From the IMG/VR virus record IMGVR_UViG_3300033148_008526, positions 1-24,542 of that record: a stretch of 24,542 nucleotides of DNA; one strand, given 5' to 3'. Below are positions 2,944-21,416 of the stretch, in pieces. The translations under genes and the position numbers were made by a program. The notes beneath the pieces were generated by a model. It saw only the letters and a program-made list of their open reading frames with translations, ran no database searches and had not been told where the DNA came from. Source of the stretch: a virus. The first letter of the stretch is position 1; every line of letters starts with the position of its first letter.

Positions 2944-3939
2944 CTAAAAGAAAGGTTTAGGTATTCTCTTTCCTGTATTTATTTTTTCTTCTTCTATATA
3001 CTTTAATAGGTTCTCAAAGTAGATCACGTTAGCTCGTGCTCTTTCTGAATAGCTTCGTTCTAATAAATCTACATCTATACCTATCTCTTCTAAATAGTTC
3101 AAAAGAACTTTTTGTTCTTTGGCTGTTCGTTCTAAAGTAAAATGAACAACAGATTTAGGATTTATCTTAGACTCCCAACTTACACCTATTGGATTTGGCG
3201 GCAAATCGTATCTAAGTTGTCCTGTAACAAAATTATATTTTGGCACAAAAATTTTACCGTACGCTGCTACCTGTAACCAAGTTGTCGAGTCAACACTGAA
3301 CCATGGATATCTAAACATCAACGGCACACTAGTAATGCCAAATCCGTGAACCATCGTCTCTTTATCTAAACCATCAATGATACGAAAAACTTCATCACCA
3401 AACCTAGTTATATATTTGTGACTATTCAGTCCTCCGCTAACTCCTCCGCCTAACGCTATGTAATCATACTCTTGCAGCATTTCTCGTAAAAAACCAAAAT
3501 GATACTTTTTACGTTCGGGATTGCCTAGCTCCGGATGATAATGAAAAACAGGTACAGGTGTAACTCCCGCTGCTTCCATATAACGTTGGGTTCGTAAAGT
3601 CTTCTCTGGATTACCCACAAAGTCAAGGTTAGCATATCCGTATAATCTATCCCTATGCTCTTTAATAAAAGTAATATAGGTATCCAGGTACTCCATTTCT
3701 TTTTCTTCCGTAACCGTTTCTCCGCGTTTAGTTATAAATTGATCCCAACTATACGCACCAGAATCCAGAAACACCTTGAAACCTTCCCATTTAGAAAAAG
3801 ATCTAGTCATGCCACCTTTATACCAGAAGGATTCAAGGGTCATCATCCTTTTTTTCTGGAGATACTCTATCATCCATTCTCGTTCTTTTAGGCCCATCTG
3901 TTTGCATGCACCAGCTAAGTAAATTCTTTGTAATTTCAT
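2944..3939 (-). CDS. dpdA: tRNA-guanine transglycosylase-like protein, probable DpdA-type DNA 7-deazaguanine transglycosylase
   Basis: The protein (331 aa) reads as a TIM-barrel of the tRNA-guanine transglycosylase (TGT) superfamily. FLDSGAYS at 57-64 aligns with the TGT TDSGGFQ motif, giving D59 as general acid/base. HGFGIT at 198-203 fits the barrel strand before the second catalytic loop, and FSVDSTTWLQVAAYG at 214-228 would supply the nucleophilic Asp (D217). TGTs exchange guanine for a 7-deazaguanine base in RNA; the DpdA branch does so in DNA, and phage DpdA proteins are known with preQ0 genes. It lacks the C-terminal CxCxxC zinc site of bacterial tRNA TGT, which favours the DNA branch. 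It lies 27 bases downstream of queC. The fold call is fairly firm; the DNA substrate is inferred from context. Confidence 0.65.
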   Translation of the reverse strand: MKLQRIYLAGACKQMGLKEREWMIEYLQKKRMMTLESFWYKGGMTRSFSKWEGFKVFLDSGAYSWDQFITKRGETVTEEKEMEYLDTYITFIKEHRDRLYGYANLDFVGNPEKTLRTQRYMEAAGVTPVPVFHYHPELGNPERKKYHFGFLREMLQEYDYIALGGGVSGGLNSHKYITRFGDEVFRIIDGLDKETMVHGFGITSVPLMFRYPWFSVDSTTWLQVAAYGKIFVPKYNFVTGQLRYDLPPNPIGVSWESKINPKSVVHFTLERTAKEQKVLLNYLEEIGIDVDLLERSYSERARANVIYFENLLKYIEEEKINTGKRIPKPFF

Positions 3940-3966
3940 ATTGGTTTCTTTCGGTATACTTCTATC

Positions 3967-4908
3967 CTATAGAAAAATAGCCTTATCATCTATTAGAAAA
4001 TCATACTGATGCTTCCCTAAGCTTAGTGAATTATAGTTCACTTTATGTTTTTCTAGCCACGCTTCTGTAACCTCCCGATCTACCGGGAATCTACTAGTCC
4101 ATAGATTAATAGTATGCCCAGCTCTATATAAAGCGTTGATTTTATTTATGTTTTCAACGTTAGGAGTTCGATTGGCATAATCATGCCCCTCCGTTTCAAT
4201 TGTAAGCACGCCGTCTATATCAACAGAATATATTTTCTTAGCTAAAAATTCACGCACTGTCCTAATGATGTTGTCATTGCGTTGCGAAACAAATACACCA
4301 GATCGAGCCTTCTTGAAATATTCAGCTATAAGATCCCGATTGTAGAAAGGTAACTTAATTCCATTCACCCATAACGCTACCCATTTTCTAAAACAGCATC
4401 TACACTTTCCACAGTAATTCCCTTCCGTAAGATCATAGCAGCTACCTGTTTTTATTAGCTGCTCTGTCTCTTTGACGTTTTCTAAATACCATTTTACAAT
4501 ATCTGCCTTGGTGTGCTCCCAAAAAGGACTCATAACTTTGATAGGTTTATTATTTAGAATGGTTAATGTTCTGGAAAATTCTTCAAAGATGCCCGGGTTT
4601 TTGTCGTTTACATTATCATCCGCTAAGCCGGCCATATAAATTTCATCAGCATATTTGGTAGCTAATAAAGCATAATATAAGTTACGGCCAGGTATAAACT
4701 TGGAATCCCCCGCCACTTCCCTATCTGCAAGATTTATAGAAGAGTCTATGGTTATTGGAACACCTAATTCTTTAATAACACGTATCTCTTCTTTACATAC
4801 CGGCAAACCTATATCAAAGTAAACGCAAGGCGGTTTGCCCAAGAAATGCCAAGCAATATATGAGTCTAGTCCCCCACTGAATAGTAATACTCTTTTATCT
4901 TCTTCCAT
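3967..4908 (-). CDS. queC: QueC (7-cyano-7-deazaguanine synthase) fused to a C-terminal HAD-type phosphatase domain
   Basis: Residues 1-180 are QueC: an ATP pyrophosphatase PP-loop SGGLDS at 11-16, FIPGRN at 71-76, and the zinc site C157, C166, C169, C172 in the CGKCRCC segment. QueC converts 7-carboxy-7-deazaguanine to preQ0 with ATP and ammonia. From about residue 226 a second domain starts: SVDIDGVL gives HAD motif I (D230, D232), LWTSR gives motif II (T271 or S272), and a lysine near K299 followed by FLIDDKA (D307, D308) gives motifs III and IV. QueC alone is about 220-230 residues, so the roughly 85-residue HAD tail is an addition. Reading is uninterrupted. The ATG overlaps the stop of the upstream tiny ORF (TAATG). 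The substrate of the HAD domain is unknown. Confidence 0.88.
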   Translation of the reverse strand: MEEDKRVLLFSGGLDSYIAWHFLGKPPCVYFDIGLPVCKEEIRVIKELGVPITIDSSINLADREVAGDSKFIPGRNLYYALLATKYADEIYMAGLADDNVNDKNPGIFEEFSRTLTILNNKPIKVMSPFWEHTKADIVKWYLENVKETEQLIKTGSCYDLTEGNYCGKCRCCFRKWVALWVNGIKLPFYNRDLIAEYFKKARSGVFVSQRNDNIIRTVREFLAKKIYSVDIDGVLTIETEGHDYANRTPNVENINKINALYRAGHTINLWTSRFPVDREVTEAWLEKHKVNYNSLSLGKHQYDFLIDDKAIFL

Positions 4909-5021
4909 TAGAACTTTCCCGAAATAGTTGTTACTAAATTACTAATATACTCCACACAGGAAAACCATCCTATATGCGTTACCAATGTTCCTATTACTAT
5001 TCCGCATAGTAACTTAATCAT
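4908..5021 (-). CDS. Tiny single-pass membrane peptide upstream of queC
   Basis: A 37-codon ORF starts with ATG at 5021 behind GAAAGGAAAAAAG and ends in TAA overlapping the queC ATG (TAATG). The product begins MIKLLCGIVIGTLVTHIGW, a hydrophobic helix of about 18 residues after one Lys, followed by a short polar tail. It lies directly downstream of the palindromic promoter at 5062-5101, so it is the first gene of the queC/dpdA/clamp/polymerase operon. It may be a small membrane protein or a leader whose translation couples to queC. I recognise no family. Confidence 0.6.
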   Translation of the reverse strand: MIKLLCGIVIGTLVTHIGWFSCVEYISNLVTTISGKF

Positions 5022-5061
5022 TCTTTTTTCCTTTCAATAAGTATCATAGTTTCTTCCGAAT

Positions 5062-5101
5062 CTTATACTTAAATTATAAGATAGTTGAATGAATGCTAAT
5101 A
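5062..5101 (-). promoter_or_regulatory. Minus-strand promoter with palindromic -10 region
   Basis: On the minus strand, TATAAT (5073-5078) lies inside the inverted repeat CTTATA...TATAAG (5062-5080). The same 19-base palindrome occurs at 9879-9897 and 13176-13194. The -35 here is weak (TTAGCA-like, about 5095-5100). It faces the tiny membrane ORF and queC, and lies behind the end of the glycosyltransferase gene, so it probably drives the operon from 5021 to the window start. Confidence 0.65.
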
Positions 5102-5127
5102 AAAAATATTAGAAATTACTAATTAAT

Positions 5128-5919
5128 CTACTTACCCTTCAAAAAATCCTCTACCGCTTTTGGTTCATTCTGAAAACGTTGCCTAAATACATTTTCTAAT
5201 GAATACTGCCAATCCCTCCGCTGCTCTCGACTCATAAGATGCCAGCAGACGGCTCCAGTAACAAGCAAACCATTTCCCACATTTCGCGTCTGAACAAACT
5301 CCTCCAACGGAGCATTATCGGGGAAACCTTCCAGGGCTTCCAGTAAAGTCCCTACACAATAATTTCGGAAAATCACTCCAGAGATGCCACCATATTTTAT
5401 GGGAATGATTTGTTCTGTTTTATATCTGAAGAATGCATATTGATATTCTTGAGCATCTGCAGGAGGACTATCATATGCTTGTGTTGAAAAATCTGGTTTT
5501 GCTACTTCGTTATTTGGTAAAAGGAATAATCCACCTACAAAATTCTTAATTTTTGTTGGACAATTTTTTGCCAGTATTTCATATTCCTTTAAAACTCTGA
5601 TCAGCGTTTCAATATAATCTGGTGCTAATAGTGCATCATCATCTAAAGGCATGAAATCATTTTTTTGTACTTGCTTAAGTAAAACTTCTCGAGCTCTGCT
5701 TAACCCCTCTCGTTTATTCGATCGGAGATACTGCATCTCAATTCCGAGTTCAGAAAGTATGTCCCAAATCATCCTGTTTTTATAATCTGAAAAAATAGGT
5801 TGACTACCATTATCATAAACAATAACTCGAGCGGGTTTAATTGTTTGACTAGATAAAGACATTAAACATAGACCAATTACATCCGGTCGATCTGCTGTTG
5901 GTATAAGCACATCAATCAT
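5128..5919 (-). CDS. Family 2 glycosyltransferase
   Basis: The 263-residue product has a GT-A fold layout. It opens IDVLIPTADRP and continues to VYDNGS about 35 residues on, the nucleotide-sugar binding half. A LDDDALL segment near residue 95 is the metal-binding DxD. GT2 enzymes transfer a sugar from a nucleotide-sugar donor; in phages, targets include modified DNA bases and surface glycans, and the acceptor here cannot be told. I place the start at ATG 5919, not the upstream TTG, because GGAG lies at the right spacing and the ATG overlaps the kinase stop (ATGA). No membrane segment or signal peptide is seen. It is the last gene before the promoter at 5062-5101. Confidence 0.82.
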   Translation of the reverse strand: MIDVLIPTADRPDVIGLCLMSLSSQTIKPARVIVYDNGSQPIFSDYKNRMIWDILSELGIEMQYLRSNKREGLSRAREVLLKQVQKNDFMPLDDDALLAPDYIETLIRVLKEYEILAKNCPTKIKNFVGGLFLLPNNEVAKPDFSTQAYDSPPADAQEYQYAFFRYKTEQIIPIKYGGISGVIFRNYCVGTLLEALEGFPDNAPLEEFVQTRNVGNGLLVTGAVCWHLMSREQRRDWQYSLENVFRQRFQNEPKAVEDFLKGK

Positions 5920-6431
5920 TTTATTCTCCAAATTTCTTTAAAACCTTCATGCTCATGCGGTTCAACATATTTAGAATTCTTGCTTGCCCATACCTCCTCC
6001 CATACTTTCAAATCCTGCCCATAACTATTTTCTGCCAGGGCTTTCCGTTTAAGAGTTTCTTCTTTAGTCAGCTTAGGAAGAACAACCGCTATAATGTCGC
6101 ACGCGGGGGCGCTCTCAGTAATATGTTCAATAATCTCTGCACGCGTTATTACTGCTTCATTTGTTTCATCACAAATGACATTAATGCCTATCTGTAAAAG
6201 ATACTTTATAGCGTGTTTGGACATATCATGCACAAATGTTTCAAAGTTATTTTCATCATACACATATTCGCCACCGCCTATCATTCGGCGAATAGCATCT
6301 TTAGATACCACTGCCCAAGGACAACTTTTTCCTTCAGCTACTAAATCCTTTTGTGTTGCTAAGAAATTCTTAATCCAGGTAGTTTTACCAGATGCAACAT
6401 TCCCTACCATAATAAGTGCAGTAAGTTTCAT
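5916..6431 (-). CDS. P-loop kinase, polynucleotide-kinase-like
   Basis: This 171-residue protein has Walker A GNVASGKT at 10-17 and SKDAIRRM at 43-50, which resembles the SRD/SKD phosphoacceptor-binding segment of T4 polynucleotide kinase and related AAA_33-type kinases. A Walker-B-like NVICDETN follows, and a lid region with KRK. It should phosphorylate a 5'-OH end or a nucleotide-like group. An RNA ligase is encoded at 16701-17891 and three tRNA-like genes lie just upstream, which fits RNA repair; a DNA base hypermodification kinase is an alternative, given the overlapping glycosyltransferase gene. No 3'-phosphatase domain is fused here. Its ribosome binding site is weak. Confidence 0.72.
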   Translation of the reverse strand: MKLTALIMVGNVASGKTTWIKNFLATQKDLVAEGKSCPWAVVSKDAIRRMIGGGEYVYDENNFETFVHDMSKHAIKYLLQIGINVICDETNEAVITRAEIIEHITESAPACDIIAVVLPKLTKEETLKRKALAENSYGQDLKVWEEVWASKNSKYVEPHEHEGFKEIWRIK

Positions 6432-6442
6432 ATGTAGTTTCT

Positions 6443-6560
6443 CTATAAGGCCTTTAACTTCTTCTGTGCTTCATAAATTCTGATTACTGGTCTAAATATC
6501 CGTATTATCTTTCTCTAATGAATATAATTGAATGGGAGCGTATGTCCTATAACATATCAT
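6443..6560 (-). pseudogene. Possible tiny ORF with a single-base disruption
   Basis: From the ATG at 6560 the minus strand reads about 20 plausible codons and then hits TAG. One frame over, a second open stretch ending FRPVIRIYEAQKKLKAL continues to a TAG at 6443, just before the kinase gene. The length is one base more than a multiple of three, so removing one base near the TTT of ATATTTAG would give a single 38-residue ORF. No clear Shine-Dalgarno is present. A 9-base inverted repeat (6529-6537 with 6585-6593) also covers this gap and may be an RNA hairpin instead. Evidence is weak. Confidence 0.25.
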
Positions 6561-6607
6561 ATTAATAGCACAGGTTTTCTAGCATCCCATTCATAATTCT
6601 TAAAATT

Positions 6608-6681
6608 TAGCCCCGACCGGATTTGAACCGGTGCCGCCGGGTTGAAGGCCCGGTATCCTGACCAGCCTAGACGACGGGGCC
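6608..6681 (-). tRNA. tRNA-Glu (UUC anticodon)
   Basis: A complete cloverleaf can be drawn: acceptor GGCCCCG with CGGGGCT (first pair G-U), anticodon stem CCGGG/CCCGG with loop CCTTCAA giving anticodon TTC, and T-arm ACCGG-TTCAAAT-CCGGT. No CCA is encoded. It lies 7 bases downstream of a small CDS in a tRNA cluster. Confidence 0.92.
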
Positions 6682-6688
6682 ACTATAG

Positions 6689-6877
6689 TTATCTTTCACC
6701 CATCACTTCTGCTGTATGGCGGTCTTGTGCCTCCTCCAAGATGATATCTGCTGTCTGGAGCATACCTCGTTGGATTGCTATTTTGGCCTCTTCCAATTTT
6801 TTATTGTACTCAGCCGGGAGTATAAATCTAGCAATTCTGTATTTGTACTCTACGTTTGCTCTTGTAAGCTCTGCCAT
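6689..6877 (-). CDS. Small helical protein between tRNA genes
   Basis: The start at ATG 6877 is chosen because AGGAGA lies at ideal spacing; the longer reading frame would begin inside the neighbouring tRNA. The product is 62 residues, starts MAELTRANVEYKYRIARF, is rich in Glu, Lys and Ala, and is probably helical. I recognise no family. Its position between two tRNA genes on the same strand means it is transcribed with them. Confidence 0.6.
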   Translation of the reverse strand: MAELTRANVEYKYRIARFILPAEYNKKLEEAKIAIQRGMLQTADIILEEAQDRHTAEVMGER

Positions 6878-6897
6878 TTTTTGTTCTCCTAAAAAAA

Positions 6898-6971
6898 GAT
6901 GATCGATGGGATTCGAACCCATAACCTTCGGGATTACAATCCGGTGCTCTAGCCAGTTGAACTACGGCCAA
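6898..6971 (-). tRNA. Degenerate tRNA, probably tRNA-Thr (UGU) with a 6-nt anticodon loop
   Basis: The D-arm (GTTC...GAGC), variable loop and T-arm (ATGGG-TTCGAAT-CCCAT) are good. The anticodon arm reads CCGGA-TTGTAA-TCCCG: a 6-base loop instead of 7, with one C-C mismatch in the stem. Restoring one T gives anticodon TGT (Thr); adding an A instead would give GTA (Tyr), but the short variable loop argues against bacterial tRNA-Tyr. The acceptor stem has further mismatches. It is either a decaying tRNA or a sequence with a base missing. Confidence 0.55.
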
Positions 6972-6981
6972 CGTTTAGTAA

Positions 6982-7065
6982 TAGCCCGGGTGAGATTTGA
7001 ACTCACACTCTCCGAAAAGAAAGGGTTTTTAAGACCCTTGCGTCTGCCGATTCCGCCACCGGGCC
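6982..7065 (-). tRNA. tRNA-Leu (UAA anticodon)
   Basis: This 84-base class II tRNA has acceptor GGCCCGG with CCGGGCT, anticodon stem AGGGT/ACCCT and loop CTTAAAA giving anticodon TAA. A long variable region as expected for Leu precedes the T-arm GTGAG-TTCAAAT-CTCAC. It reads UUA, a codon favoured in this AT-rich sequence. It starts 7 bases after the radical SAM gene ends. Confidence 0.92.
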
Positions 7066-7072
7066 AACTATT

Positions 7073-8080
7073 TTACTTTTTATGAGCGAAATTCCTTTTG
7101 CCCTCATCAGCTCTATTTTCTGAAGCGTATTTATTAGTCTCGTACATATGATCCCAAAAACATCCTCGCTTACAATCTGCAATAGTATTTTGAAAAGATA
7201 TATAAATCTCTTCATCCTTTTTCCCATCTGCTAAATCAAAAATTGAATAAGCCCTGTTCAACGGTCGATCTATGCATGCCATCAAACTACCATCAGGATT
7301 TACTGCTGGACATGCCCATTCATAGCAATGCCAATTTTGCTCTATACCAAACTTAGTCCACACTTCAAAATAATCTTTTTGATTATGCAATTTTAATCTA
7401 TTATAATTTCGCACAAACCATTTAGAAGTATTTCCAACTACATTTTTATCTTGTAAAATATTCTTGAAAACTAATTCATTATTGTCTTCTGTTTCTGGTC
7501 CTCTGTACCACCAATACATGGACTCACTGGGCGGACAAACATGAAAGAATGAAAGAATACTCCAAATGTTCTTCTTTGTAAAGTGTTCAACTAATTGAGG
7601 CAGTTGCCCTATATTTTTTCGAGTTACTGCCATATTAGCCACTAAATCACATTCTGGAAGATCTTTTTTAAGTTTAAGCAGAAGCTCCCCACCTATCTCA
7701 CTTTTCTTATTATCATGAAAAACATCTTCAGCTTTAAGAGCATTTACGGATGTACTGATACCAAATGGTTTAGAAGCTATAAGATGCTCATAATATTTTT
7801 CATCTTTCATAAGTCGGATGCCATTAGTTATGATCGTATGCGGCATCTCTATCTCATTTAGATACTCTACCATATACGGCAGATCATCTCGAAGAGTGGG
7901 TTCCCCTCCAAAAAGAACCACAAAACCCACGCCTCGATTTTTCATAATATCAAAGGCTTTTATCCACTTTACAAGATTCATATTAACTTCTGTCTGATGG
8001 TGAATAACATTACAACCTCGACATCTAAGATTGCATTCTCGGTTAATGAAACAGCAAACCTTTTGCCAGTGCTCAAACAT
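7073..8080 (-). CDS. Radical SAM enzyme with C-terminal Cys-rich (SPASM-like) region
   Basis: Near the N-terminus ECNLRCRGC gives the CxxxCxxC motif that binds the 4Fe-4S cluster used with S-adenosylmethionine. LFGGEPTL, about 60-65 residues later in the protein, matches the GGEP motif. The C-terminal third has CYEWACPAVNPDGSLMAC, then a later CKRGC, which resembles the auxiliary-cluster region of SPASM/twitch enzymes where CxxNPDGxxxxC is common. It is not QueE, which is encoded separately. The start is ATG 8080 behind GAGGAG rather than the TTG at 8086, giving 335 residues. The substrate is unknown: peptide, tRNA or nucleotide modification are all possible. It lies just upstream of the tRNA cluster. 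Confidence 0.82.
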   Translation of the reverse strand: MFEHWQKVCCFINRECNLRCRGCNVIHHQTEVNMNLVKWIKAFDIMKNRGVGFVVLFGGEPTLRDDLPYMVEYLNEIEMPHTIITNGIRLMKDEKYYEHLIASKPFGISTSVNALKAEDVFHDNKKSEIGGELLLKLKKDLPECDLVANMAVTRKNIGQLPQLVEHFTKKNIWSILSFFHVCPPSESMYWWYRGPETEDNNELVFKNILQDKNVVGNTSKWFVRNYNRLKLHNQKDYFEVWTKFGIEQNWHCYEWACPAVNPDGSLMACIDRPLNRAYSIFDLADGKKDEEIYISFQNTIADCKRGCFWDHMYETNKYASENRADEGKRNFAHKK

Positions 8081-8102
8081 ATCCAACTCCTCAATTTTTA
8101 AT

Positions 8103-8131
8103 ATTATACTGGACTAACCCTTCTTAGTTAC
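8103..8131 (-). promoter_or_regulatory. Possible minus-strand promoter for the radical SAM gene and tRNA cluster
   Basis: A perfect TATAAT (8103-8108) lies 22 bases upstream of the radical SAM ATG. The -35 at 17-base spacing (GTAACT) is poor, and the palindrome seen at other promoters here is absent, so this is a weak call. Confidence 0.3.
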
Positions 8132-8246
8132 TCTTCCCATAAAGAACTTTCATATACTTGTCCCTTCCTTGCAGATCTATTTTTAATCTATGAAAGGCTG
8201 ATTTGACAGATCTTACTGTTAATTTAGATGAATCCATTTCATCCAT
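8124..8246 (-). CDS. Small ORF without a clear start, possibly the displaced end of the upstream gene
   Basis: From ATG 8246 a 40-residue ORF ends in TAA at 8124. The frame stays open upstream for another 27 codons without any ATG; that part contains three Cys (DCP, SLCF, IWC) and looks protein-like. No Shine-Dalgarno precedes ATG 8246. Skipping one T in the upstream gene's terminal AAG-TAA-AAG would join the two frames into one protein of about 230 residues. It may be a separate gene with an unusual start, or the C-terminus of the 8299-8814 gene after a frame change. No function is recognised. Confidence 0.4.
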   Translation of the reverse strand: MDEMDSSKLTVRSVKSAFHRLKIDLQGRDKYMKVLYGKSN

Positions 8247-8298
8247 GCACCAAATGGATCTTGTTTTCTCTGCCTCGGTAAAACACAAACTATCACTT

Positions 8299-10663: not shown

Positions 10664-12622
10664 CTACCTCTTCAACCAACCAAATTTATAAACTCCCTCT
10701 CTCATTCTGTCCTCAAATTCTTTATAAAGGATCATAAACTTACTGTAACTTTCTTTGTAATACTTCTTCATCATAGGTCTCATTTGGGCCCAACCTGCAT
10801 CCCAAGCATTTAAGTGGTACTTAGGATTGGCATTATGATATGCTTTTCTCATCATCATACTTTTACGAACCAACTCTTTTGCTGCATCTAGCACTTCCTG
10901 AGCATCCTTTGATAGTGGGGTAGACTGAAGAAGGTTACAAACATATCTGTCCTCCTTAAAACTCTTTGCATCCTGATACATCTCGTTAAAATTGTTGCTA
11001 TCCGCAAGCTTCCTCATTTCTTCATTGCTCATCCAGAAGAATTCGTTTTTGACATCCCACTTCTTATCTTTATAATCTACATTTCGTAAGGAGGATTGCT
11101 GAGAACTTACATTGAATAGGGCGTATATAATGCAGTCATTATTCCACTGTTCATAATCAGGATGTTCTGTATTAGGGATAAGATACTCATCTTTACAGTT
11201 GAGCCAGGTGGAGACTATAGTTTTACGGGCCGTAAAGAAAGCCATTGCACGTCGAAAATTTATGGGGAGGATAGAATAGCAAGCATATGCAAATTTTGAA
11301 GAAAACAAAGCAACAAGTGTTCCATTCCAAGTGATTGAATTGCTATTGCTAAGAAGACAACCTAAGAATCCTTTCCATAGTTTGCTTTTTTCTTCATTTT
11401 TTACTTTTACAGCACTGGAAAGAGGGACGGCAATTACTTTTTCTAATTTTTTTAATTCATCCTTTTGTTGAATCCAAGTATTGACAGTTGAGTTTACTGA
11501 ATATAACACCTTTTCATCTATCTTTTCAATAAGATAATTTTCTTCATTCACATCTTTAACATTTAGTAAAATACTTGCCTTTTTATCCTGTTTTCCGCTA
11601 TTCCAAAGAGTAAAACTTATGCCCCAAACAGTAGACACTTCAGTAAAGTGTCTTGCTTGAAAAAGCATTCCAGAAGCAAACTTAAAATCTGTATACATAA
11701 TAGTCCGAAATTTATCATTGGTTGAGCTGGTCATAAAAAGAGGAGGAGTAAAAGTAGCTAAAGCAACATCATTTTTGTACTGCCTTTTCAGTAAGGATAT
11801 TTTATAAAGAAACTGACAGTAAAGCTGACTAGCAGAGAAACCCAGCTTACTTTTTAGCATTTCTTTATTTACTGCAGTTTTGGCCATCCCGGCTTTCCCG
11901 GTTCCATATACACCACTACTGCCTGTTCCATAAGGGGGATTGATAAAGAAAAGCACCTTCTTTCCATTTTCAAATGCTTTTTTCAAACCTTCTGGTGCTC
12001 CATCAATTCCTACTTCCTCCAAGAAATCATACTGGAATATGGTGGCTTCTGAGTTGTATCCACAATTTTTTATGGTATCTATATCACTTTGATTTAATGT
12101 ACTTATGTACAATTCCTTAAATCTATAACCTCGAGTAAGATTGGCAGTTCCTGCTGCACAATCCCAAACTATATACTCCTCCTTCCAGTTCTCACCAAAT
12201 TGCTTTGTAATCATTTTATGAGCTTCATCTGCCCATATCTGAGGTGTAAAGAAAGCTCCAGTTCTGCGTCGAAACATTTCTTCTAAAATTCTATCTTTGT
12301 TAGCGGTGAGCTCCTCTAATTCAGATGGAGAATAATCTTGTCTAAAATGAGAAAAGAATGTTCTATAATATGAAGAATCAACTTTAATCTCTTTCCCTTT
12401 TACAATTACAGTATTTTCTTTTTTAGGATGCAGATAGACATTATTTGGGGAAGTTAAGCAGGTAAAAAATAAATCAACTAGTTCAGATATCTTCTTTGTA
12501 GTAGAGCCTTTCTTGGGCTCTTTTTCCCATACAACATTCCTTTTAAATTGTTTAAATATTTCTATAATATTTCCTTTAGTGATAGAAATAGCATACGGTT
12601 TATTTAAGGATATGTTTTCCAT
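10664..12622 (-). CDS. N6-adenine DNA methyltransferase with target-recognition region (type IIG-like)
   Basis: Residues 118-127 RRRTGAFFTP match the conserved helical lead-in of gamma-type adenine methyltransferases. VWDCAAGTANL (152-162) is the SAM-binding motif I, and NPPY (228-231) is catalytic motif IV. About 400 residues follow with repeated aromatic segments, consistent with a DNA target-recognition domain. The enzyme would methylate adenine N6 in a specific sequence. The adjacent upstream ORF looks like the nuclease domain that in type IIG enzymes is fused N-terminally. The ATG at 12622 has no Shine-Dalgarno, only TAGAAAAA before it, and an open frame upstream of it joins well to the nuclease ORF if one base is added. 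It may therefore be the C-terminal part of one split gene. Confidence 0.85.
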   Translation of the reverse strand: MENISLNKPYAISITKGNIIEIFKQFKRNVVWEKEPKKGSTTKKISELVDLFFTCLTSPNNVYLHPKKENTVIVKGKEIKVDSSYYRTFFSHFRQDYSPSELEELTANKDRILEEMFRRRTGAFFTPQIWADEAHKMITKQFGENWKEEYIVWDCAAGTANLTRGYRFKELYISTLNQSDIDTIKNCGYNSEATIFQYDFLEEVGIDGAPEGLKKAFENGKKVLFFINPPYGTGSSGVYGTGKAGMAKTAVNKEMLKSKLGFSASQLYCQFLYKISLLKRQYKNDVALATFTPPLFMTSSTNDKFRTIMYTDFKFASGMLFQARHFTEVSTVWGISFTLWNSGKQDKKASILLNVKDVNEENYLIEKIDEKVLYSVNSTVNTWIQQKDELKKLEKVIAVPLSSAVKVKNEEKSKLWKGFLGCLLSNSNSITWNGTLVALFSSKFAYACYSILPINFRRAMAFFTARKTIVSTWLNCKDEYLIPNTEHPDYEQWNNDCIIYALFNVSSQQSSLRNVDYKDKKWDVKNEFFWMSNEEMRKLADSNNFNEMYQDAKSFKEDRYVCNLLQSTPLSKDAQEVLDAAKELVRKSMMMRKAYHNANPKYHLNAWDAGWAQMRPMMKKYYKESYSKFMILYKEFEDRMREGVYKFGWLKR

Positions 12623-12627
12623 TTTTT

Positions 12628-13128
12628 CTAGACAGTTTGAAAATCAAACTTCTCATCTATGTTATAAATAAATAGCCTAGTATTGATATCTTCTGATAAT
12701 TTTACTGCAAGATTTGTATTTTCATTGGCAGCATCAGATGAAGTGATACTCCAGTTCACGTCGTAGTCGAGGTACTTAGTTAAATCTTTTGTTGGTAAAC
12801 AAAAACATTCATTTATATCACCAATAAATATTACTTTAACTAATGGATCTCTCCTACTTTGCATCTTTTTAAGATAGTATAAAACTTGTATAATAATAAT
12901 ATTACTTCTTTCAAGGTTGTTTCTTAGGTCCAAATCAAATTTAAATTCCATTAAAACAGAAATAAAATCTGTTCTTAAAACACCATCACTTCTGTTTGGA
13001 GAAGAAACACTTCCGGGAAAGATTTTTTCAATGGCAGCTCTGTAGGAATTTTCAACGTCTTTCTCTACACAAGCACTTTTTAATGACTTAAGTAAGTTAG
13101 TTGTTATTCTACTTGATATTTTATGCAT
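12628..13128 (-). CDS. PD-(D/E)XK nuclease-like protein, N-terminal half of a split type IIG enzyme
   Basis: The 166-residue protein has SDG at 47-49, then MEFK with E61 and K63, fitting the D...ExK core of PD-(D/E)XK nucleases, with a preceding Glu (E28) and QVLYYL at 81-86 (a QxxxY-like motif V). The later part, with FIGDINECFCLP and YLDYDVNW, resembles the N-terminal region of large restriction/methylase proteins. It ends FDFQTV-TAG only five bases before the methyltransferase ATG. One base gained at the junction would read through as TVLEKMEN. If active, the nuclease would cut DNA not protected by its partner methylase. It is the first gene after the 13176-13214 promoter. Confidence 0.68.
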   Translation of the reverse strand: MHKISSRITTNLLKSLKSACVEKDVENSYRAAIEKIFPGSVSSPNRSDGVLRTDFISVLMEFKFDLDLRNNLERSNIIIIQVLYYLKKMQSRRDPLVKVIFIGDINECFCLPTKDLTKYLDYDVNWSITSSDAANENTNLAVKLSEDINTRLFIYNIDEKFDFQTV

Positions 13129-15908: not shown

Positions 15909-15936
15909 TCTCTTTTTTCCTATATTACTTCTTGTT

Positions 15937-15975
15937 CTTATACTTAAATTATAATATACTTTGAGCAAAATACAA
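15937..15975 (-). promoter_or_regulatory. Minus-strand promoter of the ligase/exonuclease operon
   Basis: The -35 is TTGTAT (15970-15975), spacer 16, -10 TATAAT (15948-15953), followed by the same TTTAAGTATAAG as in the other cassettes. The left palindrome arm is changed (TATTATAAT instead of TCTTATAAT), so only the downstream half is conserved. Confidence 0.7.
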
Positions 15976-16017
15976 ATAGAAAATTATCTTTCTTCTTTAG
16001 CACCAGGCCACAAGATT

Positions 16018-16701
16018 TTATGAAGTTGAAGACTGTAGGTAGTCCATATTATCTCGTATCATCTTTTCAACTAATTGTCGTGGCCAATCCATATTTGGAA
16101 CTAAAGGAGTAGCTGGCCGCAACCTGTGTAAAGAGATAGCTGGACTAAAAACTTTCTTAGCTACCCAGTGCGGATGATTATCTATAACGTCCTTGGCATA
16201 CTTATAATCATAATCATTAGCAATAACAAATTTAATTACATCTATTTGTCTTAGATCTTGAAAAACCTCATCTTTCATATGCTTGTTCATTCCAGATGAA
16301 GGAAGCTTATAGTCGACTACGTATCTTGTATTCTCCCATACTTCTTTACTGCGACATGTATTATCTATTTTAATTGATCCATTTGTTTCAATACTGATTT
16401 TACAATAGTGAATAGGATGCTTCCACATAAGTTTCACACATAATTTGTTTACTGCTTCTTGCTGGAGCAATGGCTCACCTCCAGTTATAGTTACTTTCTT
16501 AAAATGTACTTGTTCAATTATTTCATTAATAGTCATCCAATTTTCAGGTGTAGGTGATTGAGAGTAAGCGGTGTCGCAGTACCCGCATGATAAATTGCAA
16601 CCCTTTAGTCTTATGAAAGTCGTAAGTTGACCAGCCCCATCAAAACAATTATATTCACCATCTATGCTATTGAAAATAGAACACACGTTTAATTTACACA
16701 T
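16018..16701 (-). CDS. queE: QueE, 7-carboxy-7-deazaguanine synthase
   Basis: The 227-residue protein opens with SIFNSIDGEY, the QueE signature for the substrate-binding start. It has CNLSCGYC with C35, C39 and C42 for the radical SAM cluster, followed by DT as in QueE, and TGGEPLLQ near 73-80. The later DYKLPSSGM and KFVIAND segments also match QueE. The enzyme rearranges 6-carboxytetrahydropterin to 7-carboxy-7-deazaguanine, the step before QueC. The ATG overlaps the RNA ligase stop (TAATG) and GGAGG lies upstream. Length is normal. Confidence 0.92.
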   Translation of the reverse strand: MCKLNVCSIFNSIDGEYNCFDGAGQLTTFIRLKGCNLSCGYCDTAYSQSPTPENWMTINEIIEQVHFKKVTITGGEPLLQQEAVNKLCVKLMWKHPIHYCKISIETNGSIKIDNTCRSKEVWENTRYVVDYKLPSSGMNKHMKDEVFQDLRQIDVIKFVIANDYDYKYAKDVIDNHPHWVAKKVFSPAISLHRLRPATPLVPNMDWPRQLVEKMIRDNMDYLQSSTS

Positions 16702-17891
16702 TATAATTCGTCCTCCACATCGCCCACGTTCTTCTCCATTCTTTTATCCTGATCTAGCAAAAATTCAGGAGATTTATATTTCAAACAAGTCCAATTTCCA
16801 TCCTTCTTTTCAAACCAAACAACAACTCCTTCACACAATGTTTTTGCATCTACTCTAGACATTCCAGAAGCTGCAGATTGAGATGCTTCTACCACTTCTT
16901 CTTTACCGAACGCCATACCTATAAAAAATGGTTGTTCCATGCCTAGCTCTAACGCTCTAGCATAAACCTGTTTACGACTTAAATCTATCGGACATCTGTA
17001 ACGAACATTCGGTGGAAGCGATTGCGTCACTCGATACAGCATTGCTTTGAATTCACCACTACGACAATCATATGGATATCCCGGCTGAATCATTTTACCT
17101 CCATCGTACCCATAAATCTCATAGTAAATGGTTTCTCCACGATGCAAATGCGGAGCTACTCTTCTTTCAATCTCTTGCCGTATTGCCGGAATATGATGAT
17201 TAATATTATCCACTCTACGAGTTCCGCTAATGATTTTCCATTCCTGTTTGGGTGCCCAAAATTTCCACCAGGAACGTTTTGTATCTACTAATACGTTTCC
17301 TGTTCTACCACTCGTACCATGAATTTTTTCCTCAATCCAACACACAGTGCTATCAGGAATACTGTCCAATTCTCTCATCAACTGTTTGGTGTCCCAGTGT
17401 TTATGAAACATTTTAGATACAGATGGCCTTTGTTGTCTCTGAGCATGCTTAGTTGGTACGATATACTTACTGCATATCTCAATTCCATTAATAGATACGA
17501 ACTCATCCCCGACCCGCAGAGAAAATGGTTTATCATTAACTAGTTCAGGTATTTTGAATAGAGAATCAATATCAATAACGTATCCGTTGCTCATTTCTCC
17601 CCGAAACTTCTGAGCACGAACTTTGCCATTTTTTCCGAAATATCCTTTTTTAGTTGAATCAATATTCATCTCTGAACTACTATAAAGATTGTTGTGGTAC
17701 AAAAAAGTATGTGACAATCTCAAATTAGAATCAAAGTAAACCATCAGATCATCTTCTTTGGCTTCCCACCCTACTATCACAGTAGTGCCTAAAACAGTGG
17801 CCAGCTTAAGTCTATCGGCGTTGGGATGCTTCCGCACATTCTGCAGACGCACTATAATTGCATTGTTATTTTCTGACTTAGTTAGTTTCAT
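16701..17891 (-). CDS. RNA ligase (Rnl2/DraRnl-like) with N-terminal OB-like domain
   Basis: The nucleotidyltransferase core starts near residue 180: EEKIHGTSGR gives motif I with lysine K189 (K-x-H-G). YYEIYG (about 256-261) is motif III, CEGVVVW near 353-359 is motif IV, and LKYKS (370-374) is motif V. The first ~140 residues carry NADRLKLATVLG, which resembles tRNA-binding OB folds and fits the Deinococcus-type RNA ligase arrangement. It would join RNA ends, possibly repairing tRNAs cut by host defences; a P-loop kinase gene and tRNA genes are also in the window. GAGGAAG precedes the ATG, which overlaps the stop of a tiny disrupted ORF. Confidence 0.85.
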   Translation of the reverse strand: MKLTKSENNNAIIVRLQNVRKHPNADRLKLATVLGTTVIVGWEAKEDDLMVYFDSNLRLSHTFLYHNNLYSSSEMNIDSTKKGYFGKNGKVRAQKFRGEMSNGYVIDIDSLFKIPELVNDKPFSLRVGDEFVSINGIEICSKYIVPTKHAQRQQRPSVSKMFHKHWDTKQLMRELDSIPDSTVCWIEEKIHGTSGRTGNVLVDTKRSWWKFWAPKQEWKIISGTRRVDNINHHIPAIRQEIERRVAPHLHRGETIYYEIYGYDGGKMIQPGYPYDCRSGEFKAMLYRVTQSLPPNVRYRCPIDLSRKQVYARALELGMEQPFFIGMAFGKEEVVEASQSAASGMSRVDAKTLCEGVVVWFEKKDGNWTCLKYKSPEFLLDQDKRMEKNVGDVEDEL

Positions 17892-17987
17892 ATCTTCCTC
17901 TTCTCAAAGTATTTATCTAACCATTCATCCACAATTTCTGAACTATTTGTTCTCTCCAACGTCTTCCAATATTTACCAAAAAACCAT
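17888..17987 (-). pseudogene. Tiny ORF with one extra base in a T6 run
   Basis: ATG 17987 is preceded by AGGA at good spacing, but the frame stops after MVFW. Removing one T from the run of six that follows gives an open frame of 32 residues (MVFGKYWKTLERTNSS, then a helical end) whose TGA overlaps the RNA ligase ATG, as is usual for genes in this region. The span is one base more than a multiple of three. I read it as a real small gene disrupted by an indel or a sequence error. Confidence 0.45.
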
Positions 17988-18033
17988 TTTCTTTCCTGTC
18001 ACAGCAATAGTATCTACTAAAACATATATATAA

Positions 18034-18060
18034 ATTATACTGCCGTTTTGTTAAAATCAA
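18034..18060 (-). promoter_or_regulatory. Minus-strand promoter of the RNA ligase/QueE operon
   Basis: The -10 is TATAAT (18034-18039), spacer 15 bases, -35 TTGATT (18055-18060). The sequence after the -10 (TTTATATATATG) differs from the TTTAAGTATAAG of the other cassettes. It lies immediately after the end of the 18073-18606 gene. Confidence 0.55.
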
Positions 18061-18072
18061 AATACTTTTTAT

Positions 18073-18606
18073 TTAATCCCACCATTCTTGAACATGTCTA
18101 CTGAATATCTTACAAAACAAATCTATATCTTGTTGTATCATTTCTGCTTCATGCTTACTAGCTGGTATGATCCATCTAGCATCTGGTTCATCTGATTCAT
18201 CATGAGAAACAATACATATCATTCCATTTTCATCTGATTCTTTAGTAAAAGATTCCTTCATTTTTTTACTGAACCAATCAAAATGCGGTTTATTTCTTTT
18301 GTCATATGGAGTCGTGTAGTTTTCCTCCATGAGACGTTTCAAAAGTAAGTAACATATTTTTGTTTGCTTAGCATACTTGGGTGCTCCCATAGTTATGCCA
18401 TACTTTGCGTGAAATCTAGACATCTTTTGAAGCTTCTTATGCATGACTGCGTAAAGGAAGTAGTTGTCCCAATCTCGATCTTTCCAGATTATTGGAAACC
18501 AAACGATCAGATTCTGAATACCATACTTAAGGTTATTCTTCAATCTTCTAGGAGTCAAATTGTTATAAAAAAATCTACGAATACAATAGTACCATTCCCA
18601 ATTCAT
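18073..18606 (-). CDS. Unknown phage protein (177 aa) with WFPIIWKDRDWD core
   Basis: Start at ATG 18606, not 18618: GGGAG lies just before it and the ATG overlaps the stop of the upstream gene (ATGA). The sequence has a NLIVWFPIIWKDRDWDNYF block, which I associate with a widespread family of uncharacterised phage proteins; no catalytic role is known to me. The C-terminal half is acidic, with DESDEPDARWIIP. The clustering with replication genes suggests a nucleic-acid related role but nothing in the sequence proves it. Confidence 0.65.
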   Translation of the reverse strand: MNWEWYYCIRRFFYNNLTPRRLKNNLKYGIQNLIVWFPIIWKDRDWDNYFLYAVMHKKLQKMSRFHAKYGITMGAPKYAKQTKICYLLLKRLMEENYTTPYDKRNKPHFDWFSKKMKESFTKESDENGMICIVSHDESDEPDARWIIPASKHEAEMIQQDIDLFCKIFSRHVQEWWD

Positions 18607-19118
18607 TTTATCTCCCAAGGCATTGGATCTTCAGGATTCAAATCTTTTTCTAACTGAGACACACATCCATTCTCTTTAATTTTGCGATTTTCATACGGTC
18701 TGCAAATTCTCCAGTAGAATTCATCCGCAGCACATAAAAACACACCATCTATATCCTTTTTCTGTTTATGGTTCCAAAATTCATTGAACTCTTTTAAAGC
18801 TATATGAAAAACAGCTCGAAGATTGTTAAGATTAGCATACTTTAACCCTCGATCCATTACAGCTTTATGGGATAGCCAAGTAAGCATATAATTGAAATCT
18901 CCCACATTAAACTTAGGGAGTAAATTTATTAAATCTTCCACTCCAGGATATGCTTTCAAATCTGGAGCAAAAGAAAGACAGGACGTTACATCAGTTTGAA
19001 TCATATATTTGCAGGCCAATGCTATAAAAACTTTTATCAATCCTTTATCATCCATATCTGGAAATTGTTCTAAAATTTCTGTAAACTTAGATCTATCTTC
19101 TGGTTTTATATAGGGCAT
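18603..19118 (-). CDS. Unknown phage protein starting MPYIKPEDR
   Basis: ATG 19118 is chosen because GGGAGAAAG precedes it; an upstream TTG frame would overlap the previous ORF. The product (171 aa) opens MPYIKPEDRSKF, has a GDFNYMLTWLSHK helix in the middle and ends with FYWRICRPYENRKIKENG. This start and the late RxxxPYExxKxxxNG block match a common phage family of unknown function. It is coupled to the next gene by ATGA overlap. Confidence 0.65.
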   Translation of the reverse strand: MPYIKPEDRSKFTEILEQFPDMDDKGLIKVFIALACKYMIQTDVTSCLSFAPDLKAYPGVEDLINLLPKFNVGDFNYMLTWLSHKAVMDRGLKYANLNNLRAVFHIALKEFNEFWNHKQKKDIDGVFLCAADEFYWRICRPYENRKIKENGCVSQLEKDLNPEDPMPWEIK

Positions 19119-19131
19119 TTTCTTTCTCCCA

Positions 19132-19293
19132 TCATTTAAAAACAAATATTATTATGTTTGCACACCCATAAAGTACACCTAAGGCAATTGTTTTCCAATT
19201 TGATCCTGGAATGAAACAGTCAGTTATGGCTACACCAAACATGCCTACGAGTAAAAAAATGACCAAAACAAATCGCAAGGTTTTTAAATTCAT
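19132..19293 (-). CDS. Tiny two-helix membrane protein after primase
   Basis: A 53-residue ORF begins at ATG 19293, overlapping the primase stop (ATGA), with GGAGG five bases upstream. It has two hydrophobic helices, RFVLVIFLLVGMFGVAI (about 7-23) and TIALGVLYGCANIIIFVF (about 35-52), separated by a short polar loop with Cys and Pro. This is a small membrane hairpin of unknown role. A holin is a formal possibility from topology, but its place among replication genes does not support that. Confidence 0.65.
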   Translation of the reverse strand: MNLKTLRFVLVIFLLVGMFGVAITDCFIPGSNWKTIALGVLYGCANIIIFVFK

Positions 19294-20237
19294 GCTACCT
19301 CCGGAAACACTCGATCGTATATTCTATGCCATATCTCTTTAGTGCCTAAACTGTCTGGATCTTCCGTAAAGGGTATTTTAACTACTTCAACCTTATTTAC
19401 ATATGGGGTAAAGAAAGTGGCTTCATCTCTGGAGTGCCAATATGCATCACCATCCAAACAAAACACAAGGCAATCCAAATCTAATTTAAGAATTAATGAT
19501 TTTTGTACATCTGTTAAGTATAAACCAAACATAGCTACAGCTTCTTTTCCTACCCGCCATTTATCCAGAATGCCTTCTGTAATGATTAGTAAATTTTCTA
19601 TCCCATCATACCCGTATAGATAATTATTGATGGACATGCTTGGATACAAATAACTTATTTTTGCTTGCCCTGTCATATCTACAGCCGCAAAACTAACCTG
19701 TTGCTGATTCTGATGAATAGGTATAATCATTCTATTCATATATTTTCCTACTCTACATACTCCGCAGCCCTGTTCTATAACATGCTCTATAGATAATTTT
19801 CTTCTTCGTAAATATTTTCTAAGCAATGGGTAATTTATATCTGTGTATATCTTTTCAAAATATTTAGGCAAAGGCGAGAAAGTGTTTTCCTCTTTTCTTT
19901 TTTCTCTCTTGCCTTGCCAAGATCTAGAAGCATCAACTATTCTATCTGCTCCATCTTTGTCTTTAGCTCCAGATACTTCATCAATCATGCTCTGACATTC
20001 TGCACTACTATTTCCTGTAATAACCTGCAACAAGAAAGAGAAGTGTCCCTTCCTCTTACACTTCCAACAAGAAAATAGCATGCTATCATCAAAAATGCCC
20101 ATATGATTAGAATGATCTCCGCAATCTTGAAATGGGCATTGGATATTGATTGAACCGATAGAAACATTGGTTCCTTCATCCCACCAGGGAATATTTAATT
20201 CATCCAGAATAGTAGTAACTATTTGTCGAGTATGCAT
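19290..20237 (-). CDS. DnaG-like primase (zinc finger plus TOPRIM)
   Basis: The N-terminus has CPFQDCGDHSNH (C34, H42 or H45) and CWKC (C57, C60), a CHC2-type zinc finger that binds template DNA. After a linker, ITEGILDKW supplies the TOPRIM glutamate (E222), LDGDAY the DxD (D263, D265), and EDPDSLG a further acidic segment common to DnaG/phage primases. At 315 residues it is short and has no helicase domain; the helicase is encoded separately at 23235-24542. It would make RNA primers for lagging-strand synthesis. It starts six bases after the FolE fusion gene. Confidence 0.88.
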   Translation of the reverse strand: MHTRQIVTTILDELNIPWWDEGTNVSIGSINIQCPFQDCGDHSNHMGIFDDSMLFSCWKCKRKGHFSFLLQVITGNSSAECQSMIDEVSGAKDKDGADRIVDASRSWQGKREKRKEENTFSPLPKYFEKIYTDINYPLLRKYLRRRKLSIEHVIEQGCGVCRVGKYMNRMIIPIHQNQQQVSFAAVDMTGQAKISYLYPSMSINNYLYGYDGIENLLIITEGILDKWRVGKEAVAMFGLYLTDVQKSLILKLDLDCLVFCLDGDAYWHSRDEATFFTPYVNKVEVVKIPFTEDPDSLGTKEIWHRIYDRVFPEVA

Positions 20238-20243
20238 GTGTTT

Positions 20244-21416
20244 TTAAAAATTTCCTTTTTCAATAAGAGACAAAAATTCAGATCTAGTAGCTTGATTTTT
20301 TTTGAAAGCCCCAACAACAGAAGTAGTCACAGTTACAGATTCAGGTTTACTTACTCCTCTCATACGCATACAAAAATGTTGTCCTTCTACATATGCAGCC
20401 GCTCCTTGGGGTTTTATCTTCATAAGATATTTTGTTATTTCATTTGTTAATTGTTCTTGAACAACTGGTCTTTTTGCTAATATTTCTGCTAATCTAGCTA
20501 ATTTAGATATCCCTAAAATGTGCCCATTAGGAATGTACGCTATGGAGATATACAATTCCACCGGTAAAAAATGATGTGGACACATTGAAAAAACATGTAT
20601 ACCATTAACTACAATCATCTCATCCGTATCGTCTTTAAAAGCTGTAGATAGAATAGAATCAATTTGTTTTTCTGTATCTTTAACTCCTTCAAAAATTTCT
20701 GCGTATGCTCGAGCAACACGCTTGGGTGTTTGCAAAAAATGCTGATCTTTTATTTTCAAACCAAACTCTTTACGAAGACCTTTCAAAATAAGATGCATTC
20801 CTTTTTCAATATCATAAAGGCCCACATATCTGGTAGAAGTTCTTCTTAATTCATTGTGCAGTTTGGAATGGCAACTTCTACACATTACGGTTAAGTTTTC
20901 TAGAGAATGATTTCCTATTTCAGAATTATAGTTATTACAATCTATGTGATGAACAACTAATCTTTTTTTAGGAAAAATTTTTCCACATCTTGAACAGGTC
21001 CTTCCATAATGTTCAAGAGCTCGATTTCTATAATTATTAGCATTATAGTATTCTGTATTTCTTTTAGTTTGTTTCATTTTTTCATTAGATTTTTTTCGTG
21101 TCTTTGAATCCATATTATCTTTACTCCTAACACGTATTTGATTTGGATCTTTCATTTGTTCAATAGCTGAAGAACGTTTTGCATCTTTAAGTTCTTTTGC
21201 TTTAACGGGACCAAACATTTCTATATACGTTTTTCCTCGACTATGATCCCCACGAGTATTCGTTCTATGACATGTTTCCATAAGTGCTTTTGGAAACTTT
21301 TCTTTATATTTTTTCATTGTCATATTATGATATTTTTTAAGATGGGTATTAGAAATTCTCTTAAATTTTTTATCACACAGTTGGCAAACTACAAAATCAT
21401 CATCCAATTTGTGCAT
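20244..21416 (-). CDS. folE: HNH endonuclease fused to GTP cyclohydrolase I
   Basis: Residues 1-55 contain a C2H2-like finger (C11, C14, H25, H30; HLKKYHNMT) of the type found in phage HNH homing endonucleases. Residues 141-190 are the HNH domain: CSRC (141-144), VVHHID (154-159), N174, and CRSCHSKLH with C179, C182, H183, H187. From about residue 200 FolE begins with YDIEKGMHLILKGLRKEFG, continues with TPKRVARAYAEIF, the zinc site SMCPHHFLP (C279 and the following His) and the second Cys in GQHFCMRMRGV (C349). FolE turns GTP into dihydroneopterin triphosphate, the first step to preQ0. No stop, start codon with good Shine-Dalgarno or frame change separates the halves. ATG 21416 follows AGGAGA. 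Confidence 0.88.
   Translation of the reverse strand: MHKLDDDFVVCQLCDKKFKRISNTHLKKYHNMTMKKYKEKFPKALMETCHRTNTRGDHSRGKTYIEMFGPVKAKELKDAKRSSAIEQMKDPNQIRVRSKDNMDSKTRKKSNEKMKQTKRNTEYYNANNYRNRALEHYGRTCSRCGKIFPKKRLVVHHIDCNNYNSEIGNHSLENLTVMCRSCHSKLHNELRRTSTRYVGLYDIEKGMHLILKGLRKEFGLKIKDQHFLQTPKRVARAYAEIFEGVKDTEKQIDSILSTAFKDDTDEMIVVNGIHVFSMCPHHFLPVELYISIAYIPNGHILGISKLARLAEILAKRPVVQEQLTNEITKYLMKIKPQGAAAYVEGQHFCMRMRGVSKPESVTVTTSVVGAFKKNQATRSEFLSLIEKGNF

Follow-up and report, generated by a model that had tools for sequence, protein, structure and literature searches.

Relation to described 7-deazaguanine systems

In Escherichia coli phage 9g and in phage CAjan the genes for DNA modification follow the pattern FolE-QueD-QueE-(Gat-)QueC-DpdA. 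The 9g DpdA inserts preQ0 and, together with Gat-QueC, G+ into DNA, and was unable to complement an E. coli tgt mutant (PMC6884629). Here we analyzed a related locus of an uncultivated tailed phage in the IMG/VR record IMGVR_UViG_3300033148_008526, which was taken as a whole (24,542 bases; the window) and belongs to the linear class of records, which are often fragments. The pathway genes discussed all lie on the minus strand. They encode a DpdA homologous to that of 9g, FolE and QueE, and DpdA is located near the genes for the sliding clamp and the DNA polymerase, as in 9g and CAjan. In contrast to these phages, the QueC of the window is neither canonical nor of the Gat type and carries a fused HAD domain, the locus further encodes a second radical SAM protein (rSAM2) and a family-2 glycosyltransferase (GT2), FolE and QueE lie 12-16 kb away, QueD is not in the record, and the polymerase carries a UDG domain. 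With moderate confidence we interpret this as a modification locus through which guanines in the phage DNA would be replaced by a 7-deazaguanine whose side chain is enlarged and possibly glycosylated.

The QueC family (PF06508) is described with canonical, QatC and Cap9 branches (PMC13329287, PMC13279940). The window QueC shares with them the SGGxDS and PxRN motifs, the four zinc Cys and a Lys, and differs in the missing YxQxHxxE and YPDC motifs, in its own tree clade and in its C-terminal HAD domain. A combination of preQ0 genes with a glycosyltransferase is found in the cluster for huimycin, a glycosylated 7-deazaguanine-type compound whose sugar has been assigned to that glycosyltransferase (PMC7439116). 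Unlike the product proposed here, huimycin is a free actinomycete antibiotic, its cluster as described contains no DpdA, and the likeness noted is one of gene content. A further parallel is the RB69-type pathway to arabinosyl-hydroxymethylcytosine (PMC6024577): phage JS98 encodes a HAD protein similar to that of the window (tblastn, E 7e-7) beside a gene resembling RB69 orf052c. That pathway, however, targets cytosine, and its proposed glycosyltransferase is likened to the T4 alpha-glucosyltransferase and not to family 2.

No phage 7-deazaguanine pathway with an added radical SAM protein, phosphatase or glycosyltransferase was met with in the literature searched, as judged by the titles listed and with most subscription papers outside the search, and a search of the same literature for four newer phage 7-deazaguanine bases gave nothing. 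A 2023 study is said to have reported further phage 7-deazaguanines, and the phage 7-deazaguanine bases known to us are all small. Since phosphatase, second radical SAM and sugar-transferring or sugar-oxidising genes recur beside DpdA and a diverged QueC, larger replacements for guanine are to be expected, and the recurrent set names the genes with which this can be tested. QueC relatives have lately been found to perform unexpected chemistry in anti-phage defence, which would make a new QueC branch timely.

A predicted DpdA related to that of phage 9g

The gene at 2944..3939 encodes a 331-aa predicted DpdA (DNA guanine transglycosylase) of the 9g type, which matched the PHROG profile phrog_887 (E 2.7e-41) and was 34% identical to 9g DpdA over query residues 28-305 (E 4e-30). 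Among the positions invariant in all 65 aligned rows, the window included, were D59 (in LDSGA), D106, H198 and D217 (in SVDSTTW); D59 and D217 presumably occupy the positions of the catalytic aspartates of TGT. An AlphaFold2 model built from the 65-row alignment (pLDDT 78.7) had TGT (7a4x, 9.9e-5) and the bacterial DNA preQ0 insertase DpdA (7ui4, 3.1e-4) as its top Foldseek matches, and it aligned to the Thermotoga TGT 2ash with a Z score of 18.6 and a root-mean-square deviation of 3.9 over 275 residues. Scans of the protein against Pfam and NCBIfam gave no family match, TGT included, and a sequence search of the PDB gave chance-level matches to other proteins and none to TGT. The identity of DpdA is settled by the PHROG profile, the alignment and the fold comparison, and not by Pfam, NCBIfam or PDB sequences. 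The protein contains a single Cys, which leaves no room for the zinc site of tRNA-type TGT, which we take to be formed by three Cys.

The gene order DpdA-clamp-polymerase is as in 9g and CAjan and agrees with a Queuovirinae-like phage; an open reading frame (ORF) of 87 aa separates DpdA from the clamp, and CAjan also has a small gene there. The original prediction had been that a TGT- or DpdA-like protein is encoded at 2944 and that the phage carries 7-deazaguanine in its DNA. The first of these is borne out by the homology to 9g DpdA, the TGT fold and the catalytic aspartates, which place the protein in the TGT superfamily, and the second draws on the same evidence and on the synteny with the clamp and the polymerase. 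On this evidence, the DNA of the window phage very probably contains a 7-deazaguanine.

A diverged QueC fused to a HAD domain

The gene at 3967..4908 encodes a 313-aa fusion of a QueC part (∼4294-4908) and a HAD domain (∼3970-4233). The QueC part exceeded the cut-off of PF06508 (2.5e-13) and scored 40 bits with TIGR00364, for which the cut-off is 150. It retains SGGLDS (the SGGxDS motif, residue 11), IPGRN (PxRN, 72-76), C(x)8CxxCxxC (157-172) and the conserved Lys. It lacks YxQxHxxE and YPDC: Ile replaces Y35, the 131 stretch contains no Tyr, and DK stands at the end of the YPDC position. Of the mutants of E. coli QueC, Y35A and Y131A were inactive and Y131F was partly active (PMC13329287). 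FolE, QueE and QueC had all been predicted with intact active-site motifs; the three genes are where they had been placed, but for QueC the motifs are not intact.

A single change suffices for each of three sets in a tree of 88 rows: the canonical set of 37, to which E. coli belongs, the Gat-QueC set of 37, and the DK-type set of 10, to which the window belongs. Support for the DK-type set was 97/82, with several long branches whose joins were flagged by the tool. Four rows of the tree (L091, L055, NCTBa and NCTBb; relatives are referred to by record number) were assigned to no group; one of them, NCTBa, is unlikely to be a QueC. By its sequence the window QueC is non-canonical and belongs to a separate phage clade, which would mark out a branch of its own in the QueC family. 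An equation of the DK type with dADG was given up: phage CP220, reported to carry dADG (PMC8306585), has a QueC of the canonical type (FPDC). An apparent loss of the zinc site in Gat-QueC was an alignment artefact, the Cys being present in 9g and NP1. The Gat-QueC of 9g reportedly did not restore tRNA queuosine in an E. coli queC deletion, although it is active together with DpdA. Two observations concern other arrangements of QueC. In Stenotrophomonas phage Bhz51 (L004, 2633-3753) a HAD-like gene overlaps a non-canonical QueC by 4 bases, FolE and QueE are present and a phrog_887 match for DpdA is absent. A second, longer QueC stands beside non-canonical QueC and rSAM2 in L138 (4883-6505) and L208 (10336-11778); it has a Gat-like YPDN/YSDN motif, yet no match to a Gat domain.

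The HAD domain makes up the C-terminal ∼90 residues of the fusion and contains the motifs DIDG (230), WTSR (270) and DDK (307). It matched phrog_1238 (6.1e-20) and, with just 28 bits against a cut-off of 162, the EcbF-BcbF model TIGR01689 (1.7e-6); the closest PDB match was 9iqw, a 'capsule biosynthesis protein' (1.8e-8). The QueC:HAD fusion was also present in L001, L131 and L211 and in L132/L133, which represent two lineages. A HAD gene beside QueC in Menderavirus was rejected as the same HAD, being different by eye and unmatched by the window HAD at E 1e-3. The HAD of the L002 record has no module genes around it (3.3 kb seen) and was excluded from the counts.

A second radical SAM protein and a glycosyltransferase

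The radical SAM protein rSAM2 (7073..8086; PF04055, 6.5e-14) has a CxxxCxxC motif at residues 18-25 and C-terminal Cys at 271, 305 and 309 that are invariant in the alignment, a pattern that recalls SPASM/twitch enzymes. It is 63% identical to its counterpart in L131 and 60% to that in L211. A tblastn search of 50,697 named phage records with rSAM2 at E 1e-3 gave no match; the rSAM2 of L136 as query matched 15 named phage records, the best at E 2e-7 and one with more than 80% coverage.

The gene at 5128..5931 is a predicted family-2 (GT-A) glycosyltransferase with a DDD motif (PF00535, 8.2e-12). Its start is TTG in the ORF list, and comparison with L001 suggests ATG at 5919. In L001, L131 and L211, too, a GT2 gene precedes QueC:HAD, and the same tblastn search with GT2 as query gave no match among the named phage records. 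Neither rSAM2 nor GT2, nor the HAD domain on QueC or the HNH domain on FolE described below, had been part of the original prediction.

FolE, QueE and the scattered pathway

FolE is encoded as a 390-aa fusion (20244..21416; PF01227, 6.8e-57; PF01844, 1.4e-6), in which an N-terminal part resembling zinc-finger/HNH homing endonucleases (∼20817-21416) precedes the FolE part (∼20247-20810; CPHH at 279, EGQHFC at 344). The FolE profiles were above their cut-offs (PF01227, 192 bits against 27; TIGR00063, 184 against 181.6). The HNH part is absent from folE of the relatives L002 and L003. A good Shine-Dalgarno sequence (AGGAG) precedes the long ATG of the fusion; there is also a possible internal GTG start for FolE alone, at which a Shine-Dalgarno sequence is not evident by eye. 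QueE, a predicted 7-carboxy-7-deazaguanine synthase (16018..16701; phrog_2076, 1.1e-34; TIGR03963, 2.3e-42), has its CxxxCxxC motif as CNLSCGYC. Its TIGR03963 score of 145 bits lies under the curated cut-off of 260, and the NCBIfam equivalog cut-offs were not reached.

QueD had been noted as missing from the window, and a search of the record, itself a fragment, agreed. QueD was found in one of six further module records (L131) and in six of seven other DpdA-phage records; its presence in the record of L131 makes a location elsewhere in the genome likelier than supply by the host. The remark that the pathway is unusually scattered also stood. The distance to DpdA is 16.3 kb for FolE and 12.1 kb for QueE. 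By contrast, at 55 of 80 DpdA-seeded loci FolE, QueD, QueC and QueE were all found in the flank, the furthest of them 1.8-6.4 kb from DpdA. Flanks were limited to 10 kb and cut shorter by the ends of some contigs, so that scattered gene sets are under-counted among these loci. In the record of L015 both QueD and QueE lie ∼16 kb from DpdA, which shows scatter in another lineage too.

Conservation of the locus in relatives

A scan of IMG/VR with the window-type QueC, including its HAD domain, provided the best 80 of 184 candidate relatives. In L131 and in L211, which was retrieved with rSAM2 as the sole query, the order rSAM2-GT2-QueC:HAD-DpdA-clamp-UDG-polymerase is as in the window, with other genes interspersed; the QueC:HAD of L131 is 62% identical to that of the window. 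L001 has GT2-QueC:HAD-DpdA, and its contig stops ∼0.5 kb past the kinase gene, before the expected position of rSAM2.

More distant phages hold HAD and rSAM2 within compact clusters of varying arrangement. L135 has a compact cluster, QueD-QueE-FolE-HAD-rSAM2-QueC-DpdA, and L134 is alike; in L136 a family-1 glycosyltransferase (GT1) stands between rSAM2 and QueC of such a cluster. The order in L137/L141 is rSAM2-QueC-HAD-DpdA. HAD lies between QueC and DpdA in L199, between DpdA and QueC in L208, and between FolE and QueC in L143, where a UDP-glucose/GDP-mannose dehydrogenase is added. Short-chain dehydrogenases occur in the clusters of L134, L138 and L206, and a methyltransferase in that of L134.

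For the counts, 160 loci were combined into 105 groups at 85% QueC identity, 54 of them non-canonical and 51 canonical or Gat. Duplicate or reference records (L012, L013, L094-L116, L130, L153, L154 and L172) were left out, and L211, found after the count, and L212, a weak rSAM2 match without QueC or DpdA, stand outside it. A QueC was classed as non-canonical either by Y35 alone or by the 131-134 motif, with the DK motif alone as a third variant; several rows with unaligned motif columns were entered as non-canonical. Genes within 3 kb of QueC or DpdA were counted as near.

By the 131-134 motif, rSAM2 was near in 8 of the 30 non-canonical groups with DpdA, the window among them, and in none of the 51 canonical or Gat groups (Fisher, 1.8e-4). 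For HAD the figures were 13/30 and 1/51. The contrasts were weaker by the other definitions: with Y35 alone, among groups with DpdA, rSAM2 was near in 7/27 against 1/54 and HAD in 11/27 against 3/54, and with DK alone, over all loci, rSAM2 was near in 5/58 against 4/102, which is not significant (p 0.29). As controls, 50 canonical or Gat records were picked from the 80 DpdA-seeded ones. The GT2 family occurred in one of these, ∼46 kb from DpdA. Radical SAM matches were found in 48, one each except for a record with a weak second frame of 57 aa, and a second radical SAM match above the cut-off in none of the 50.

Proposed pathway and alternative explanations

By homology, FolE and QueE, with a QueD probably encoded elsewhere in the genome, would convert GTP to 7-carboxy-7-deazaguanine (CDG), and DpdA would exchange guanine in DNA for the 7-deazaguanine. 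The QueC:HAD protein may activate the carboxyl group of CDG with ATP; as residues needed by canonical QueC are lost, its product could be an amide or conjugate that is made in place of preQ0 or alongside it. The HAD domain might take phosphate off a phosphorylated, sugar-like or amine-bearing intermediate, rSAM2 could change the side chain through radical chemistry, and GT2 may attach a sugar, either before DpdA inserts the base or afterwards. Such an enlarged 7-deazaguanine would be expected to protect the phage DNA from restriction. A side chain larger than in the known phage bases, made with the help of HAD, rSAM2 and GT2, is the reading that gene neighbourhood most favours for these conserved gene sets. 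More tentatively, the product may be an undescribed DNA base, a glycosylated or otherwise enlarged 7-deazaguanine, for which the diverged QueC would join CDG to a new partner and the HAD domain, the SPASM-type radical SAM protein and the glycosyltransferase would finish the side chain.

A preQ0 pathway had originally been predicted. The genes for FolE, QueE, a QueC-fold protein and DpdA are there, and the prediction stands to that extent; plain preQ0 as the product is weakened by the non-canonical QueC and by HAD, rSAM2 and GT2, which the standard DpdA records examined lack near DpdA. The phage could nevertheless be a plain 7-deazaguanine phage, in which QueC still yields preQ0, or goes no further than the amide ADG, and HAD, rSAM2 and GT2 serve other purposes, such as RNA repair, nucleotide metabolism or glycosylation of receptors or tails. 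We regard this as less probable than the enlarged side chain, though possible. The presence of all four pathway genes is compatible with it, and L093 has a complete DpdA-QueC-QueD-QueE-FolE cluster with a DK-type QueC and neither HAD nor rSAM2. Both a PNK-like kinase and an RNA ligase are encoded in the window, and such HAD domains match PNK phosphatases as well (phrog_415/505, PF25109). However, HAD and QueC are fused in the window/L001/L131/L211 lineage and also in that of L132/L133, and divergent phages have HAD or rSAM2 within compact preQ0 clusters. Furthermore, the standard DpdA records examined had no HAD, rSAM2 or GT2 near DpdA apart from the HAD of L057, and L131 and L211 keep HAD, rSAM2 and GT2 but not the kinase.

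Several results weigh against the enlarged side chain. Sixteen of the 30 non-canonical groups with DpdA had neither HAD nor rSAM2 near, so an altered QueC alone does not imply a bigger base. The HAD enrichment is biased by the HAD domain in the scan query, and at loci found by DpdA alone HAD was near in 0/3 non-canonical and 1/50 canonical groups and rSAM2 in none. Tyr at position 35 is kept in L132/L133 and L137/L141 despite a HAD in the cluster. A 'capsule-type' label for HAD is weak, all EcbF-BcbF matches being far under the cut-off; the HAD of L134 scores above the cut-off of PF25109, a PNKP phosphatase model, and those of L143 and L199 match BT0820 best. Many radical SAM families match rSAM2, in each case below the NCBIfam cut-off. 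Its best family scores were with TrsS and MoaA, the PADLOC viperin models matched at 2.9e-14 and 1.3e-8, and the NCBIfam viperin model gave 35 bits against a cut-off of 180; none of these scores names a function. The structure model of GT2 (pLDDT 42) was too poor for a structure search. No QueF, ArcS or Gat domain was found among the window proteins scanned with Pfam, PHROG and NCBIfam, and thus a sugar acceptor is not indicated. QueD was found neither in the window record (0/1) nor in L001-L003 (0/3), none of which is known to be complete. On the supporting side, the ratios of non-synonymous to synonymous divergence (dN/dS) in the nearest pairs were 0.05 for DpdA, 0.07 for QueC:HAD, 0.13 for GT2 (against L001) and 0.11-0.13 for rSAM2; these values are rough, with dS above 1 in all pairs and undefined in 3 of 13. 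For GT2 the ratio was 0.24-0.30 against L131 and L211, and for the clamp and the kinase 0.19-0.23.

Very improbable is a role of the altered QueC and rSAM2 in defence or counter-defence, through protein deazaguanylation in the manner of QatC or Cap9 or through a viperin-like rSAM2. QueC scaffolds have been repurposed for the conjugation of CDG to proteins (PMC13329287, PMC13279940), and the window QueC has weak QatC matches besides the viperin matches of rSAM2. Against this, rSAM2 matches TrsS and MoaA equally well and accompanies DpdA and QueC in eight groups, a PADLOC scan of 8 window proteins showed no Qat or CBASS partner, and the Cys4 pattern of QueC is not the C(x)19CGxCxxRR given for QatC (PMC13329287). 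A tRNA-modifying TGT-like protein, in a gene set that alters queuosine-type tRNA bases, would fit the TGT fold and the tRNA-Tyr(gta) gene with its GUA anticodon at 6897-6972, but is likewise very improbable, as the closest characterised relative, 9g DpdA, acts on DNA and did not complement tgt (PMC6884629), the single Cys is incompatible with the TGT-type zinc site assumed above, DpdA lies near the clamp and the polymerase as in 9g, and a PHROG scan of 20 window proteins, which did not extend to shorter ORFs, showed no QueA or QueG family.

Other genes of the window

A P-loop kinase (AAA_33/PNK-like; 5916..6431, minus strand; PF13671, 2.4e-11) adjoins GT2. It is a doubtful member of the module and was rejected as such, since of the relatives L001, L131 and L211 it was found in L001 alone. 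Three tRNA genes (Glu, Tyr and Leu) occupy 6607-7066, between rSAM2 and the kinase and GT2. Proteins of 652 and 166 aa are encoded side by side at 10664-13128; the larger shows, by eye, an NPPY-like methyltransferase motif, and the smaller has a VLMEFK stretch. The two are possibly a modification/restriction pair; scans with Pfam, PHROG, NCBIfam and PADLOC gave no significant family match for them, and in L211 only a remnant resembling the start of the 166-aa protein was seen.

The sliding clamp is encoded at 1549..2652 on the minus strand (phrog_947, 1.7e-36). The adjacent gene on the same strand, at 345..1547, encodes part of a DNA polymerase, with the UDG and the 3'-5' exonuclease regions (PF03167, 8.6e-15; phrog_17, 2.5e-13; PF01612, 1.3e-4, narrowly below the cut-off). 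NP1 and R7M are annotated with a family-B polymerase; the window has the UDG and exonuclease part only. The gene is broken (345-1547 and 1-330) by a 58-bp gap relative to the intact 883-aa ORF of L001, which may be natural or an assembly error. A UDG domain at the start of the polymerase gene, behind DpdA and the clamp, is common to several DpdA phages, among them L014 (7516-10041) and L001 (5951-8602).

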